From Balneolaceae bacterium (GTDB lineage: Bacteria; Bacteroidota; Rhodothermia; Balneolales; Balneolaceae), in the NCBI GenBank assembly GCA_017640605.1, contig JAEPQH010000009.1:62001-126000 (forward strand): a stretch of 64,000 nt of DNA. Reading direction: 5' to 3'. The translations under genes and the position numbers were made by a program. This document shows positions 3,690 through 43,999 of the stretch, piece by piece. Every line of letters starts with the position of its first letter. Position 1 is the first letter of the stretch. The notes beneath the pieces are model-generated. The model worked only from the letters and a program-made list of their open reading frames with translations, ran no database searches and had not been told where the DNA came from.

Positions 3690-4553
3690 ATGAAACATTT
3701 TCTACTTACACTTACACTCGTATGTGTAACAGGATTATCCTTTGCACAAGAAACCATCATCATCCCCGACACCCTCGATAATGAGTGGGCAACTACCTGG
3801 GTACTTGGCTTAAATGCTTCGCAATCTACCTTTAATAACTGGGCAGCGGGTGGCCAAAATAATGTTTCTGCAACTGCTTTTACGCGTGTTAATGGTGCGT
3901 ATCGCCAAGGGAAATTCACCTACGGTTACGTATTTAATGTGCGATATGGCATCACTAATATTGAAGGTGAGGAAAGCCGAAAAACTGCCGATCGTTTAGC
4001 CATCAGACATCGTGCTGCGTACATACTTAATGAGGAAAATACCATGAACGCTTTCGCTCAAATATCATTCGTCACTCAGTTTTATGATGGCTACGACTAT
4101 TCCGGAGACGCTCGTGTTCGTATTTCAGATTTCATGGCACCCGGATATCTTTCAGAAAGTATCGGTTATGCATACACTCCTACCGATTTTGTGAGTTTTG
4201 AAGCAGGTTTAGCGCTTAAACAAACCTTTGTTAACGATGATGCACTCGTTCCGGGTTATGGTGTTGAAGCGGGAGAGAATGTATTTTCTGAAGGTGGTCT
4301 TCAACTGGCAGTCAATTTTAGTAAGGAAATCCTTACAAACGTGAACTACACAACAAGTTTCGAGACGTTTAACAACATCAATAAAAGTTTGGCAAGTACA
4401 GATGTTTCCTGGGCTAATGAGCTCACGGGTAAAATAAATGATTACCTAACCGCCTCTTTTCAACTTGAAATGATTTATGATGATGATGTAGTTGCAGATG
4501 AGCTGCAAACACGGCAAATTCTTGCAGCCGGTTTGTTAGTTAATCTCAGATAA
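3690..4553 (+). CDS. DUF3078 family secreted/outer-membrane protein
   Basis: 287 residues with a clear signal peptide (MKHFLLTLTLVCVTGLSFAQ, cleavage after about residue 19). The mature part starts with the conserved W-rich block around WATTWVLGLNASQSTFNNWAAGG, diagnostic of DUF3078. Alternating hydrophobic strands ending in a final LLVNLR suggest an outer-membrane beta-barrel. It follows the PyrR-like gene by 24 bases, and its TAA overlaps the ATG of the decarboxylase gene by one base, so all three may share a transcript. Function is unknown. Confidence 0.85.
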   Translation: MKHFLLTLTLVCVTGLSFAQETIIIPDTLDNEWATTWVLGLNASQSTFNNWAAGGQNNVSATAFTRVNGAYRQGKFTYGYVFNVRYGITNIEGEESRKTADRLAIRHRAAYILNEENTMNAFAQISFVTQFYDGYDYSGDARVRISDFMAPGYLSESIGYAYTPTDFVSFEAGLALKQTFVNDDALVPGYGVEAGENVFSEGGLQLAVNFSKEILTNVNYTTSFETFNNINKSLASTDVSWANELTGKINDYLTASFQLEMIYDDDVVADELQTRQILAAGLLVNLR

Positions 4554-5904: not shown

Positions 5905-6768
5905 ATGGGTACTTCATTACAAAAAAGAGAATGCGCGAGTTGCGGTTTACCTTTCGAGACTCAATTTTGCCCCAATTGCGGTGAGCGCAGACTTACAGAA
6001 AAGGATTATTCGGCATTCTCTCTTGTCAATGATTTTGTAGTGGATGTGTTCAACATCGAAAACAAGTTTTGGCGAACGCTTAAATACTTTCTGATTAAGC
6101 CGGCAACCTATGTTGATGAATACATCAAAGGAGCGCGAAAGAAGTTTATCTCTCCCATCAAATTGTTCTTACTGGCGAATGCGTGGTACTTCCTTTTCCC
6201 GGCCATAAATACCTTTAAAACGTCGTGGACTACCCAGCTTGGTGGACTCCCCTATAGTTCACTAACTCTCGACTTTTTAACAAAATTTCAGATTAGTACC
6301 GGGTTGAGCGCTAGCGATTTCGCATTACTTTATAATGATGCCACCGCTGTTATATCAAAACTTTTTGTGATTATTCAACCGTTGTTGTTCGGTTTACTCA
6401 CTTATTTGCTCTACTATCGCCGCAGAACTGAAAAGCCACTAATTCATCACTTTAATCACAGCTTGGTTTTTTATGCATTCCTGCTTTTAATAGGAGTTAG
6501 TATTGCTCCAGCTACTTATAGTTTGATTGGAATTGTGTTGGAATCGGAAGCAATGAAGGACTTTCGGACCGAAGTAAACGTCACCATTTTCATATTTCTG
6601 ATTCTTAACATATTTGGCTTTTTCTTATATAAAAAGTTTTTCGCCGAGAAGTGGACTAAAGTAGTTTGGAAAGTTCTGGTATTAAACCTGCTCTTTGCTC
6701 CCCTATTACAAATCTACCGTTTTATTCTGCTTTGGATCACCCTCGGCTGGATTTGGCTTACGGTTTAA
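5905..6768 (+). CDS. DUF3667 membrane protein with N-terminal zinc ribbon
   Basis: 287 residues. An N-terminal CxxC...CxxC zinc ribbon (CASCGLPFETQFCPNCGERR, residues 10-29) is followed by the conserved FWRTLKYFLIKPATYVDEY/ARKKFISPIKLFLL block of DUF3667. About five transmembrane helices follow. It starts five bases after the decarboxylase stop, so it is last of the plus-strand run from 3171. Its end overlaps the convergent lipoprotein gene by 11 bases. Function is unknown. Proteins of this family are common single-copy membrane proteins in Bacteroidota. Confidence 0.88.
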   Translation: MGTSLQKRECASCGLPFETQFCPNCGERRLTEKDYSAFSLVNDFVVDVFNIENKFWRTLKYFLIKPATYVDEYIKGARKKFISPIKLFLLANAWYFLFPAINTFKTSWTTQLGGLPYSSLTLDFLTKFQISTGLSASDFALLYNDATAVISKLFVIIQPLLFGLLTYLLYYRRRTEKPLIHHFNHSLVFYAFLLLIGVSIAPATYSLIGIVLESEAMKDFRTEVNVTIFIFLILNIFGFFLYKKFFAEKWTKVVWKVLVLNLLFAPLLQIYRFILLWITLGWIWLTV

Positions 6769-9682: not shown

Positions 9683-10447
9683 ATGAAAACTGCCTCTCAA
9701 GCTCAGATAACTCTACTTAGAAAACTTAAACAACGTAAGTACCGCACCATTGAGCAAAAATTTGTGATAGAAGGCGAGCGCGCTATCGATCAAGTGATCG
9801 AAAATGGAGTGGTTGATGTGGAGGCCATCTTTCTAAAGGCTAGTAAGCTCGATCATTTTAAAGGAGTAAATAAAAAGCTGCATCTGCTCGATCACCGCGA
9901 TTTTAATGATCTGGCCGATACAGAGAATCCTCAGGGAATGCTCGCCATCTGTAAAATCCCGGAGCCAATTTCGCTGTCGCAGTTATCTACAACCAATGGA
10001 TTAATCATTGCTACCGATGCCATTCAGGACCCCGGAAACATGGGCACAATTATCCGATCAGCCGTTTGGTATGGAGCTAGTGCACTTATTACAGGCACAG
10101 GATCGGTGGATATCTACAACCCAAAAGTGGTGCGTAGTACAGCCGGTGCTACGGGAATCTTACCCTTTGTTCAAGGTGAATTAATTGACCTTTGTAGTGA
10201 ACTTAAAACTTTGGGCTGGAGCGTAATGTTGCTTGATGGCAATGCCGGAGCTGTATCGATCAGCGATGTTCCATTTCAAAATAAAACTATCCTGATTGTG
10301 GGCAACGAAGCCAATGGCATTTCCGGTGAACTAATCGATGCCGGTTACCAGCGTGTATTGCTACCAACTAAATCGCCCCAACAATATGTAGAGAGCCTGA
10401 ATGCCGGAGTTGCCATGAGTATCGCCTTGGCAATTGTTAATAAATAA
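9683..10447 (+). CDS. TrmH/SpoU-family RNA 2'-O-methyltransferase
   Basis: 254 residues. An N-terminal substrate-binding domain (KLKQRKYRTIEQKFVIEGER) precedes the SPOUT catalytic domain, whose three knot motifs are visible: DAIQDPGNMGTIIRSAVWYGA (motif 1, catalytic Arg), IVGNEANGI (motif 2) and ESLNAGVAMSIAL (motif 3). It transfers methyl from SAM to a ribose in rRNA or tRNA. The exact target cannot be told. It resembles RlmB/TsnR-like enzymes with the SpoU substrate-binding extension. Confidence 0.92.
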   Translation: MKTASQAQITLLRKLKQRKYRTIEQKFVIEGERAIDQVIENGVVDVEAIFLKASKLDHFKGVNKKLHLLDHRDFNDLADTENPQGMLAICKIPEPISLSQLSTTNGLIIATDAIQDPGNMGTIIRSAVWYGASALITGTGSVDIYNPKVVRSTAGATGILPFVQGELIDLCSELKTLGWSVMLLDGNAGAVSISDVPFQNKTILIVGNEANGISGELIDAGYQRVLLPTKSPQQYVESLNAGVAMSIALAIVNK

Positions 10448-38322: not shown

Positions 38323-40272
38323 TTATTTCTTATCGTCGTCGTCTTCCACTACTTCGTAGTCGGCATCAACGGCACCTTCGTCTTCTTCGTCTGAAGATGC
38401 GTCTGCAGCTGGTTCTTCAGCTCCGGCACTTGCACCGCCTGCGGCATCGCCACCGGCAGCAGCTTCTGCTTGTGAAGCAGCGTAGATTTCTTGCGAGGCC
38501 GCTGTCCAAGCCGTATTTAATGCTTCTAAAGCAGTATCTATCGCATCTAAATCTTCAGCTTTATGAGCTTCTTCAAGCTTTGCAACTGCGTCCATTATAG
38601 TTGTCTTATTAGCTTCCGATATTTTATCACCATATTCTTCGAGGTCTTTCTTTGCCTTAAAGATTTGAGCATCTGCTTCATTCATCTTCTCTACACGCTC
38701 ACGGATTTTCTTATCCTCTTCTTCGTGCTCTTTGGCTGCGTTTTTCATCTTTTCGATTTCCTCATCGCTCAATCCTGATGATGACTCGATACGAATACTT
38801 TGCTCTTTGCCGGTTCCTTTATCTTTGGCTACAATGTTCAATACACCGTTGGCATCTAAATCAAAAGTAACTTCAATTTGCGGCATACCACGTGGCGCCG
38901 GTGGAATTCCATCTAAGTGGAAACGACCCAACGTACGGTTGTTGGCTGCCTGAGCACGCTCGCCTTGCAACACATGAATTTCTACCGAGCTTTGGTTGTC
39001 CGCTGCGGTAGAGAATGTCTGTGATTTTGAAGTCGGGATCGTACTGTTCGATTCGATAAGTGGAGTCATAACACCACCTAAAGTCTCGATTCCCAATGTA
39101 AGTGGAGTTACATCCAAAAGAACCACATCTTCTACATCACCGGAAAGAACACCACCTTGAATAGCAGCACCAACGGCTACTACTTCATCCGGGTTAACGC
39201 CTTTGCTCGGATCTTTTCCGAAAAATTCTTTTACCGCTTCCACAATGCGAGGAATACGAGTAGATCCACCTACCAAAATTACCTGATCGATTTCTGACTT
39301 ACTCATTCCGGCATCTTTCAAAGCCTGCTCGCAAGGAGTGATCGAACGCTTTACTAAATCATCTACTAATTGCTCGAACTTCGAACGACTTAGATCAATA
39401 TTTAAGTGCTTTGGACCGTCTTGAGTTGCAGTAATAAACGGTAGGTTGATGTTGGTTTTTTGTGAAGACGAAAGCTCAATTTTCGCTTTCTCGGCTGCAT
39501 CTTTCAAACGCTGCATCGCCATGGCGTCTTTGCGAAGATCAACACCTTCGCTTGACTTAAACTCATCGGCCAAGAAGTTGATAATACGCTGATCGAAGTC
39601 ATCTCCACCAAGGTGTGTATCACCGTTGGTTGATTTTACTTCGAATACACCATCGCCAAGCTCAAGAATCGAGATATCAAAGGTACCACCACCAAGGTCA
39701 TATACGGCAATGGTTTGATCTACATCTTTTTTATCTAAACCGTAAGCAAGTGCAGCTGCAGTTGGCTCGTTGATGATACGCTTTACTTCAAGTCCAGCAA
39801 TTTTTCCGGCTTCCTGAGTAGCTTTACGTTGTGCATCGTTAAAGTAAGCAGGCACGGTAATTACAGCCTCGGTTACTTTCTCGCCTAAATACTCTTCAGC
39901 AGTTTGCTTCATTTTTTGAAGCACCATTGCTGAAATTTCTTGCGGTGCATACTTGCGGTCGTCGATTTGTACACGTGCAGTGCCATCATCACCTTTAACT
40001 ACTTTGTATGCTACCTGCTCAGTCTCACCGGTAACTTCATTAAACATCCGTCCCATAAATCGCTTAACAGAAGCGATGGTTTTATCCGGATTGGTGATCG
40101 CCTGACGTTTTGCAGGCGCGCCCACTAAGCGCTCACCGTCTTTACTAAATGCTACTACAGATGGAGTGGTTCGTCCACCCTCTGCATTCTGGATTACTAC
40201 CGGTTCGTTTCCTTCCATTACGGAAACGCAAGAGTTGGTAGTACCTAAGTCAATTCCAATTATCTTTCCCAT
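38323..40272 (-). CDS. dnaK: Chaperone DnaK (Hsp70)
   Basis: 649 residues. The ATPase domain starts [20 protein letters not shown] and has [28 protein letters not shown] and [12 protein letters not shown]. The linker region [16 protein letters not shown] leads to the substrate domain, and the acidic tail ends in VVEDDDDKK. It refolds proteins with DnaJ/GrpE, neither of which lies nearby. A small heat-shock gene precedes it by 131 bases on the same strand, suggesting a heat-shock operon. Confidence 0.98.
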
Positions 40273-40403: not shown

Positions 40404-40847
40404 TTAATTCACTGGAATACTGGTAGTGTCTTTCAGTTTATCTGATTTCGGCATAGCCACTGTTAGTACTCCATTTCTGAACGAAGCGCTGATTTCAGCT
40501 GCATTCACATTTTCCGGAAGTGCAAAAGAGCGAGCAAAAGCCCCGCGCTTTCTTTCCTGACGCTTAAATTCTTCGCCCTCGCCTGCTTGTATATCCCTTT
40601 CACCTTTTATGGTGAGCACATTGTTTTTGAGTGCAATTCCGATCTCTTTCTTGGCCAGCCCTGGTAAGTCGATCTGAACTTTGTATTCAGCTTCGCTTTC
40701 CAAAATGTCGCAGTCGGGGGCAAAGTCTTTATCATCGTGTGTAAGAGGAACTACCTTTTCAACAAATTGCTGTATGTCTTTTCCAAGTTTCGAAAGGTGT
40801 TTCTCTATCTCTATTCCAAATTCTGTGAAGTCTCCCATGGCGCTCAT
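40404..40847 (-). CDS. Small heat-shock protein Hsp20/alpha-crystallin
   Basis: 147 residues from the ATG at 40847 (a second ATG three codons in is possible). The alpha-crystallin domain spans about 45-145: YKVQIDLPGLAKKEIGIALKNNVLTIKGER, then SFALPENVNAAEISASFRNGVLTVAMPK. The A-x-x-x-n-G-V-L motif is present and the C-terminal I-x-V (SIPV) anchors oligomers. A holdase that binds unfolding proteins, upstream of dnaK on the same strand. Confidence 0.94.
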   Translation of the reverse strand: MSAMGDFTEFGIEIEKHLSKLGKDIQQFVEKVVPLTHDDKDFAPDCDILESEAEYKVQIDLPGLAKKEIGIALKNNVLTIKGERDIQAGEGEEFKRQERKRGAFARSFALPENVNAAEISASFRNGVLTVAMPKSDKLKDTTSIPVN

Positions 40848-40919
40848 GTTCGTTTAAATTCGAACTTAAATAAGCAAGCACAATGCCAATGGAGTCTATC
40901 ACATACTGACATGACTAAT

Positions 40920-40936: not shown

Positions 40937-41053
40937 GGCAAGGATGAATTAGGAATAGGGGAATTAGTAATTAGTGCCACAGGCATCGCTATGTAAGACT
41001 ACACACTTAATCAGTCATTCTTCGAGTGCTTTTGTGTTTTCGTGTCAAGAAAA

Positions 41054-41238
41054 CTACTCTTCAGACAACGACTCCAAATCCTTCCAAAAGCTTGAGTAAC
41101 TCAAGGCAGCACTTTCGGCGGCTTCGATTTCGGAAGCTTCTTTTCCTTTGATAGCTAGAATTACGGAGCCCATTGCAATCCTGACATCATGGAAGGAATC
41201 GAACTGAGCGGATTGAAGGTAAAATCCCTTAACGGACG
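41054..41238 (-). pseudogene. Displaced, decayed copy of the aroA 3' end
   Basis: On the minus strand this encodes about 60 residues, with FDSFHDVRIAMG near the middle and SFWKDLESLSEE then TAG at the end. The last 49 residues match the AroA C-terminus at 37 positions. The catalytic-region DHR has become DVR and there is no start, so it is non-functional. Similarity continues about 30 bases past the stop (TTTTCTTGxCACGAAA-like on both). It begins right after the Fic stop at 41254. The arrangement intact aroA - fic - remnant mirrors the phoH locus. Confidence 0.9.
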
Positions 41239-41253
41239 ATGAGTTTTAGTCTA

Positions 41254-42390
41254 CTAGTAAGACAGTATTCGTTTGAGTTCAGTATTCAAATAATAATGTT
41301 TTCCGTGAATGGTTCTTTTCTCTAGCAATCGCATTTCAACCATTTTGTTTAAGTAATCTCTAGCAGTATTTTCTGAATAGATTCCTTTATTTGTTAAGTG
41401 ACTTACCTTTGTGAAAGGCTGAGTAAATATTGCTTCAATTAGGTCATCAGGCCTTCGTATTTCTGAATTCTTTTTTAAGAGCTCCAACATGTCTTCTTTC
41501 ACTGCTAAAATATCTGTGATTTTATCGAAGGTTAATCGAGAAGTAAACTCTACCGCTCTAAGCATATACAAAAGCCAGCTCTTCCAATCACCTTTCTGTG
41601 AAACTCCTGCAAGTAAATCAAAATACTCCTGCCTGTGGTCCATGATATATCTACTCAAAAATAAAATGGGATTATCCAATAACCCATTTTTGCATAAAAA
41701 GTGGATCATCATAATTCTTCCGGTTCTTCCATTCCCATCAGAAAAAGGATGTATCACTTCAAGTTGATAATGAGCCACAGCTAGTTTCAAAAGTGGTTCA
41801 TCAGGGATGTTTATACTCCCATTTAAAAAATCAATTAGATTGTCCATTTTTCGCTCCACAATCCCCACTCCTCTTGGTGGTGTATACACAGCTTTACCAG
41901 CATTAGGTCCACTCCCTCCCTGTCGAATGTATACTCTTGACACTGGCGATCTATACCTCTCAGTAGTCTCCTTAATCTCATTAAAAACCAGCACAAAATA
42001 ATCTGTGTCGAAGTTATTATGTTCATCCAAGTAATGATACCCTCTCCATAGTGCTTCTATATACCTCAACACCTCTTTTGCTGTACCTTGTTTTAGCTCA
42101 CCCGATTTACCTTCACTATATGCTTTGTATAACTCATCTTCTGTTGTAAATATGTTTTCAATAGCACTTGAATCCTTAGCCTCTTGTAATGTGATCGTGT
42201 TTACTAATATTCCTTGATTAGGAATCGCTATACTTCTACCATTTAATAAAGCTAATGCCTCCTTTGCCTTACCTAGCTGTTTGTATACCTCTAAATCCAA
42301 AAAAATCTCCTCTTCAAGTGGGAGTTCTGGCAAATCATTCCACGGAATACTTCGGTCTGGATTTATCGGATATAATGAATCTTTCTGCAT
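41254..42390 (-). CDS. Fic-domain protein, class II with N-terminal inhibitory motif (AMP transferase type)
   Basis: 378 residues. An N-terminal helical domain (DUF4172-like) carries the autoinhibitory motif S74-S-A-I-E78-N79. The Fic core is complete, with H214-PFSDGNGRTGR225, so it should be catalytically able. The AVYTPPRG flap lies just before. The C-terminus (about 295-378, KVSHLTNKGIYSENTARDYLNKMVEMRLLEKR) is a winged helix. Family members transfer AMP to protein hydroxyls, often onto themselves or gyrase-type targets, and some autoregulate. The gene is cargo between aroA and the aroA remnant, with repeated motifs upstream (42403-42485). Confidence 0.9.
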   Translation of the reverse strand: MQKDSLYPINPDRSIPWNDLPELPLEEEIFLDLEVYKQLGKAKEALALLNGRSIAIPNQGILVNTITLQEAKDSSAIENIFTTEDELYKAYSEGKSGELKQGTAKEVLRYIEALWRGYHYLDEHNNFDTDYFVLVFNEIKETTERYRSPVSRVYIRQGGSGPNAGKAVYTPPRGVGIVERKMDNLIDFLNGSINIPDEPLLKLAVAHYQLEVIHPFSDGNGRTGRIMMIHFLCKNGLLDNPILFLSRYIMDHRQEYFDLLAGVSQKGDWKSWLLYMLRAVEFTSRLTFDKITDILAVKEDMLELLKKNSEIRRPDDLIEAIFTQPFTKVSHLTNKGIYSENTARDYLNKMVEMRLLEKRTIHGKHYYLNTELKRILSY

Positions 42391-42402
42391 TAATTAATCT
42401 AA

Positions 42403-42485
42403 TTTTTAATGTTTACCCCTATTCCGATCTCAAAATAGGTCATTGGAATCATATAAACATTAAAAATTTTGATTTTTAATGTTTA
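42403..42485. promoter_or_regulatory. Three copies of a 13-base motif upstream of fic (candidate operator)
   Basis: TTTTTAATGTTTA occurs exactly at 42403-42415 and 42473-42485, and inverted (TAAACATTAAAAA) at 42454-42466. The first copy starts 12 bases before the fic ATG (read on the minus strand); the inverted pair is separated by six bases. A fourth degenerate copy (TTTTTAAGGTGTG) starts near 42543. A plausible site for the winged-helix tail of the Fic protein. Confidence 0.65.
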
Positions 42486-42618
42486 ATCGAAAAACGACCT
42501 TAAAGCTCATCCTTCTGAGCAGGCAAACATCAATAAAATCGATTTTTAAGGTGTGCTATCCTGCCAAAGCTGCTACATCCTACCAAAAACTTAGGAATTA
42601 AATATAAATCGCTATTGA

Positions 42619-42666
42619 GTCATTCTGAGTCACGCCGAGGCGTGGCGAAGAATCCAGACGGATGAC
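42619..42666. repeat. Palindromic intergenic repeat between fic and aroA
   Basis: It runs from GTCATTC to GATGAC and contains CACGCC-GA-GGCGTG. It is similar in plan to the array elements (GTCAT...ATGAC ends) but with different inner sequence. The remainder of the 42391-42709 gap holds the fic motifs and nothing else recognised. Confidence 0.75.
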
Positions 42667-42709
42667 TTCTAACTATTTTTAGTACGTTTGTGATTTCGTG
42701 GCAAGAAAA

Positions 42710-43999
42710 CTACCCTTCAGCCAACTTTTCCAAATCACTCCAAAAACTAGGATAGCTTACTGCTGCGCTTTCGGCGGCTTCGATTTCGGATTCTTCTTTT
42801 CCTTTTAGGGATAGGATGGCTGAAGCCATAGCAATACGGTGATCGTGGAAAGAATCGAACATCCCGTTTTCGAATTCAAAATCCGGATTGCCTCGGATAA
42901 CTAATCCATCTTCCATTTCTTCATACACTCCGCCTACCGCATCCAGCATTTTAGCGATGGCCATAATGCGATCGGTTTCTTTGTGGCGAAGTTCTTCTGC
43001 TCCGGATATGATTGAGGTTCCGTCGGCAAACATCATGGCAACGGCTAAAATGGGGAGTTCATCAATGCAGTTCGGGATCAGCGCCGGGTCCACATCAATT
43101 TTTCTGAGCTGGGCGGTTCGCACGATGATATCACCAGCCGGTTCAGCGCCTTCTTCATGTTGATTTTCGATGGTAATGTCGGCGCCCATCTGTTTTAAAA
43201 TGGTTAACAGTCCTGTTCGAGTTGGATTCAATCCTACATTTTCCAACCTGATTTCGGAGTCGGGCATAATCGATCCCGCCACTAACCAAAAAGCTGCAGC
43301 AGAGAAATCTGCCGGTATAGTATAACTTTGGTTCGGGATTTTATTTTTTAAGGATGCACTAATCACTCGCTTCCCATCTATAACTTCCACTTCAAGATTG
43401 AGCAATCGTTCGGTGTGATCCCTGCTCGGAACAGTTTCAATCACTCGTGTAGGAGTTTCTCCAAATAATCCCGCCAGCAAAATGCATGATTTCAACTGTG
43501 CACTAGGAATGGGTAATTCGAAATCGATGGGTACAAAAGGATCCTCGCGGGTTACAAATAACGGGGCGTATTTTCCATTACGAGCCAAAATATGCGCTCC
43601 CATACTTTCTAGTGGATCAATAATCCGTTTCATGGTTCTTGCAGAAAGTGATGGGTCACCTATTAAATACACCGAGGAACCTGAGCCTACCAAAACGCCT
43701 GAAAGTAACCGCATGGCCGTTCCTGAATTCCCGCAATCGAGTTCGTCGGATAAAGGTTGAATGCCATATCTGCCGCGACCTTCAACCACTACTACATCAT
43801 CAAGTTGTGTAACTTCGGCTCCTAATAATTCCACACAATTCAACGTACTTTGTGGATCTTCGGCCGGGGAATAATTTTTAATAACAGACTTCCCATCATG
43901 CAACAACGCAAAAATAGCTGCTCTTTGTGAAATCGACTTATCCGGTGGGGGAGTAATGGTTCCGTTTAACGAAAATGCAGGGGCAATTTTTTTGATCAT
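42710..43999 (-). CDS. aroA: 3-phosphoshikimate 1-carboxyvinyltransferase (EPSP synthase)
   Basis: 429 residues. It joins PEP to shikimate 3-phosphate in aromatic amino-acid synthesis. Motifs are PDKSISQRAAIFALL, LDCGNSGTAMRLLSG, SAQLKSCILLAGL, the central NCIDELPILAV and LRHKETDRI, and the C-terminal FHDHRIAMA. The protein ends SFWSDLEKLAEG. A decayed second copy of the last part lies at 41054-41238 beyond the Fic gene, so the tail of this gene may be recombinant. It is not clustered with other aro genes here. Confidence 0.96.
   Translation of the reverse strand: MIKKIAPAFSLNGTITPPPDKSISQRAAIFALLHDGKSVIKNYSPAEDPQSTLNCVELLGAEVTQLDDVVVVEGRGRYGIQPLSDELDCGNSGTAMRLLSGVLVGSGSSVYLIGDPSLSARTMKRIIDPLESMGAHILARNGKYAPLFVTREDPFVPIDFELPIPSAQLKSCILLAGLFGETPTRVIETVPSRDHTERLLNLEVEVIDGKRVISASLKNKIPNQSYTIPADFSAAAFWLVAGSIMPDSEIRLENVGLNPTRTGLLTILKQMGADITIENQHEEGAEPAGDIIVRTAQLRKIDVDPALIPNCIDELPILAVAMMFADGTSIISGAEELRHKETDRIMAIAKMLDAVGGVYEEMEDGLVIRGNPDFEFENGMFDSFHDHRIAMASAILSLKGKEESEIEAAESAAVSYPSFWSDLEKLAEG

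Follow-up and report, generated by a model that had tools for sequence, protein, structure and literature searches.

Fic AMP-transferases of the Sofic type have been reported as abortive-infection toxins that protect against phages (PMC12249575). In Yersinia pseudotuberculosis, CccR, a Fic toxin with a C-terminal helix-turn-helix, represses its own promoter through palindromes (PMC9755527). Two routes of gene movement are also relevant here: homology-facilitated illegitimate recombination, exemplified by the swapping of effectors next to vgrG (PMC11751169), and insertion with long target duplication, which has been described for restriction-modification genes (Nobusato et al. 2000, as cited in PMC3154945). 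Little is documented on how single defense genes move when no obvious mobile element carries them.

The window, i.e., the entire stretch of 64,000 nucleotides that was analyzed, comes from a Balneolaceae genome of 3.74 Mb in 34 contigs and contains a clear scar of gene mobility. On the minus strand, an intact aroA gene is followed by fic, a remnant of the aroA 3' end, hsp20 (40404-40847), and dnaK (38323-40272); the features of this locus are listed in Table 1. The nearest congener is G001; the AroA proteins of the two genomes are 91% identical. Neither the kind of event nor the kind of gene is new; of interest are their combination, the prior divergence of the relic, and the conserved operator.

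Table 1. Features of the aroA-fic-hsp20 region (positions in the window)
Feature	Position	Strand	Evidence
Intact resident aroA (EPSP synthase, 429 aa)	42710..43999	-	PF00275, E 2.4e-98; TIGR01356 above cut-off
Live aroA 3' end plus 29 bp past the stop, the copy matching the remnant	42681..42860	-	blastn block, 140/180
Short intergenic element with palindrome	42617..42660	.	Loose copies of a part at two further genomic sites
Possible distal Fic operator, imperfect palindrome ACCTTAAAAATcgATTTTATTGATGTTT	42525..42556	-	Sequence; similar sites in L091, L092, and L094
Predicted main Fic operator: perfect 14-nt inverted repeat TAAACATTAAAAAT/ATTTTTAATGTTTA with 4-nt spacer	42454..42485	-	Inverted-repeat search
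Predicted proximal operator half-site TAAACATTAAAAAT	42402..42415	-	Alignment and inverted-repeat search
Fic gene, 378 aa: Fic_N + Fic + SoFic-like_C; HPFSDGNGRTGR at residue 214, SSAIEN at residue 74	41254..42390	-	
Decayed aroA 3' end with DVR for DHR and, near its start, a 1-nt deletion; includes 29 bp beyond the stop	41025..41226	-	
hsp20 with the DNA upstream of it, native sequence beyond the insertion site	40404..40889	-	blastn, 88.5% over 486 bp to congener L005

The Fic protein consists of the Fic_N, Fic, and SoFic-like_C domains, which cover its whole length in this order, each with a Pfam score above the gathering threshold. The catalytic motif HPFx[D/E]GNGRxxR and the class II N-terminal inhibitory motif [S/T]xxxE[G/N] are both intact. 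Along with this domain arrangement and these two motifs, the likeness to Sofic extends to the closest solved structures, which are SoFic-type, and to a match with the PADLOC SoFic model at 3.8e-97. The score against the NCBIfam SoFic equivalog NF046030 is 298 bits, under the cut-off of 550 bits, so the protein is a SoFic relative rather than a strict SoFic orthologue. It also differs from Sofic in having an upstream operator array and, judged from the ORFs alone, no clear AS1-like antitoxin gene downstream. The gene is a solo Sofic-type fic gene, and by analogy with this family its toxin-like product probably serves in phage defense. Among the genes of the window, its GC3 of 0.32 is low but not outlying. 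The region 3' of fic contains only very short ORFs, and the 39-aa one on the same strand (41054-41173) is part of the aroA relic. It is located directly 3' of fic, where the Escherichia coli Sofic has a 47-aa antitoxin gene, which is probably a coincidence.

The earlier note regarded fic as the only cargo. It is indeed the only inserted gene, but about 170 bp of predicted operator DNA (42391-42560) came along with it. The array combines the palindrome CAWACATTAAAAATnnnnATTTTTAATGTWTG with TTAAGG boxes. The palindrome, which occurs once in the whole genome, lies about 93 bp before the start codon, and this distance is kept at -92 to -94 in the members of the Fic clade that have the array. The array is found in 17 of the 19 members of this clade, including two of the three copies on Hymenobacter plasmids, and occupies the same upstream position in L091-L105 and L111-L113 (Balneolaceae and Hymenobacter). 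It is missing in all 11 paralogues (about 40% identity), and only about 0.0003 of shuffled sequences match it. This conservation within the clade and absence from the paralogues indicate that fic probably represses itself through the upstream palindrome and that the operator and fic probably travel together as one unit. CccR, with palindromes in its own promoter, provides an experimental precedent for the operator reading (PMC9755527). The two are likened by their architecture; the secretion link of CccR has no counterpart seen at this locus.

Beyond fic, the aroA end occurs a second time, from ~57 codons before the stop to ~29 bp after it. In a blastn comparison, the live 3' end aligns with positions 41025-41204 in one gap-free block of 180 nt (140/180 identical; E 4e-39), so that fic is bracketed by a long direct repeat of its target (180 nt, 78%). 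With a DNA profile of the aroA tails of relatives (E 1.6e-31), the remnant can be followed across a single 1-nt deletion as far as about 41226, and it is the sole significant match of this profile among 55 regions downstream of aroA. These results confirm the repeat described in the earlier note and its count of 37 matches among the last 49 residues; the DHR of the EPSP synthase site does read DVR in the remnant, which is non-functional. The same note had the remnant starting immediately after the fic stop. It does lie close by, but recognizable homology begins only about 26 nt after the stop: these 26 nt align with aroA no better than shuffled sequences do. The reported similarity of some 30 bases past the aroA stop is likewise present, as 29 matching bp, but it adds only weak evidence because it is partly shared with a short sequence that is weakly dispersed in the genome. 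Exact matches of that sequence are confined to the two aroA ends, with 10 looser ones elsewhere.

That post-stop sequence, TTGNCACGAAANCACAAA (41025-41048 and 42681-42704), has its approximately 10 loose recurrences in intergenic regions of other contigs.

Comparison of the aroA loci shows that both congeners and nearly all other relatives have the aroA-hsp20-dnaK gene order with neither fic nor a comparable remnant. A search of 129 genomes of the order with the aroA-tail profile gave no convincing second aroA end outside the present genome; matches in other genomes at E > 0.01 were counted as chance. These comparisons, suggested by the earlier note, support an insertion in which fic entered between aroA and hsp20 and left behind a non-functional aroA 3' end. 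The alternative that this note had named, a whole-gene duplication of aroA with internal deletion, would predict intermediate forms, and none is seen in the 129 genomes. The same junction contains other cargo in some close relatives. G002 and G034 have short ORFs there, whereas G007 has the gene of a secreted CotH/lamin-tail protein of 990 aa and two further genes, one of them resembling, by its sequence, a D12-type DNA methyltransferase. Past the gene for the secreted protein, G007 has a 41-nt stretch that is similar to an aroA end and reads WEDLEKLFQKE-stop (L107, ~10170-10235). This stretch matches the G007 aroA tail with an E value of 2e-5 but is not significant by the profile (E 0.35), and it is taken as a hint rather than as an established scar.

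The source of the remnant was addressed by a placement test with the approximately unbiased (AU) criterion on 8 sequences, using relatives with a full-length aroA. All placements outside the clade of the resident aroA and G001 are rejected (p-AU < 0.03), which rules out a distant lineage as the source, whereas the three placements inside this clade (sister to the resident gene, sister to G001, and on the stem) tie. On the question raised in the earlier note, whether the remnant is closer to the aroA of some other lineage than to the resident gene, the remnant groups with the resident gene and that of the nearest congener, with no preference between the two. It is not a fresh copy either. Over the 46 comparable codons, the remnant and the live tail differ at 7 first, 6 second, and 21 third positions; for the resident gene and G001 these numbers are 6, 3, and 21. 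The third-position difference of 21/46, equal to that between the resident and its congener, rules out a recent local duplication and is far from the few synonymous changes that the earlier note would have expected of one.

The best explanation, to which we assign about an even chance, is that a solo, self-regulated Sofic-type Fic unit entered the aroA-hsp20 junction by recombination anchored in the aroA 3' end, the two tails being formerly functional alleles. It is consistent with the fic-free junction of relatives, the identity of the remnant as an aroA tail, and the presence of the Fic unit elsewhere in relatives. A less probable explanation, still to be taken seriously, is an insertion with long target duplication, in which the aroA 3' end was copied in place as the Fic unit inserted and the outer copy then decayed. 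As far as the principle is summarized for restriction-modification genes (Nobusato et al. 2000, cited in PMC3154945), the locus shares with it the single-gene cargo, the long direct repeats that bracket the insertion, and the empty site in close relatives, but its repeats seem more diverged than the decay of a fresh duplicate predicts. A similar look is displayed by a fic relative in G081 (L097), a genome of another genus, which is bracketed by a 436-bp, 97% identical, intergenic direct repeat (3963-4396 and 6176-6611). The full repeat occurs only twice in the G081 genome, with only fragments in 7 of the 9 genomes of its genus, and this fic resembles a more recent insertion with long target duplication. 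A fic relative bracketed in this way, by a repeat unrelated to the one at aroA, suggests a recurring style of insertion.

The distribution of changes along the codon bears on these two explanations. A tail that was dead from its formation is expected to change at a nearly equal rate per site at all codon positions. The remnant and the live tail differ at 21 of 46 third positions but at only 13 of 92 first and second ones, too uneven for such a tail: the dead-on-arrival model is disfavored at p 0.034 in a likelihood ratio test, or at p 0.015 when some change in the live gene is allowed, which is a marginal result from 46 codons. Most of the divergence thus seems to have accrued under selection, while both sequences functioned as aroA. 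This pattern leans towards recombination of diverged alleles, or towards an old functional tandem copy, over duplication in place.

The second of these options, an old tandem aroA copy (a paralogue or xenologue) that long remained functional and lost its 5' part at the fic insertion or by deletion, would account for divergence under selection and for a split of the remnant and resident at about the time of the congener split. Nevertheless, it appears improbable, as no tandem aroA or larger remnant is found in the 129 genomes of the order or in the 59 nearest relatives. Some elements supply a replacement tail for the gene into which they integrate, as does prophage e14 at icd. Site-specific integration of such an element at the aroA 3' end, with subsequent reduction to fic alone, has the fitting geometry of a full gene on one side and an orphan 3' end on the other, and could draw on the G007 junction with its different cargo and, behind the first gene of this cargo, a possible aroA-end scar, but it is very improbable, given that the locus has no detectable integrase or attachment core and no tRNA nearby and that the G007 scar is not significant by the profile.

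Under the preferred explanation, recombination anchored in the aroA 3' end, the unit of operator DNA and one gene, about 1.3 kb, would have entered the junction in one Balneolaceae lineage. DNA of a sister lineage of the same clade would have recombined within aroA on one side and been joined non-homologously on the other, so that one tail completes a working aroA and the displaced tail decays beside hsp20. The remnant side is continuous with the native DNA upstream of hsp20, a slight indication that it is the native end that was displaced and survives as the remnant. Such an event would resemble homology-facilitated illegitimate recombination in that a conserved gene provides, with its 3' end, the one homologous joint and the other joint is non-homologous, and would differ from it in the survival of the displaced 3' end at the aroA locus. 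Against this explanation stand the small number of comparable codons, the marginal rate argument, and the lack of a clear breakpoint: third-position identity to G001 is 0.50 for aroA, with no clear change along the gene, and 0.47-0.70 for the neighboring genes. A donor that has aroA next to a Fic gene of this clade is not known, and the locus carries no integrase or other mobility gene, with only fic between the live aroA and the remnant. From what is known of the family, the Fic protein would be an autoinhibited AMP-transferase that represses fic by binding the upstream palindrome with its C-terminal winged-helix domain and that acts as an abortive-infection toxin once repression is lifted or a phage activates it.

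Members of this Fic clade, 58-77% identical to the protein described here, are found at other loci in Balneolaceae and on Hymenobacter plasmids (about 60% identity for the latter). The nearest ones (77% and 74%) belong to genus g6, where both genomes have fic at one common locus beside a different gene. The present genome has that flanking gene too, on a different contig from fic. It does not mark an original fic locus there, as the only close Fic match in this genome is the one next to aroA. Short repeats that flank the Fic relatives in L092, L096, L102, and L103 were rejected as target duplications for being short or multi-copy.

A broader reading is that the operator-plus-fic units of this clade spread as mobile units reduced to a minimum. 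Lacking an integrase, they would gain a homologous foothold at the 3' end of a host gene and would regularly leave behind long repeats or diverged relics of gene ends, which would make this a recurring route for the mobility of single defense genes. The cases that can be cited are the aroA locus, the repeat in G081, and the possible scar beside other cargo in G007, and we consider this generalization unlikely. The locus itself keeps one joint of such a move, and comparison with relatives allows its gene-end relic to be dated. The conserved operator leads to a testable prediction that a widespread Fic clade represses itself which, if true, would explain how a toxic gene enters new hosts. In G081, a second, distant fic gene is located just outside the 436-bp repeat (L097).
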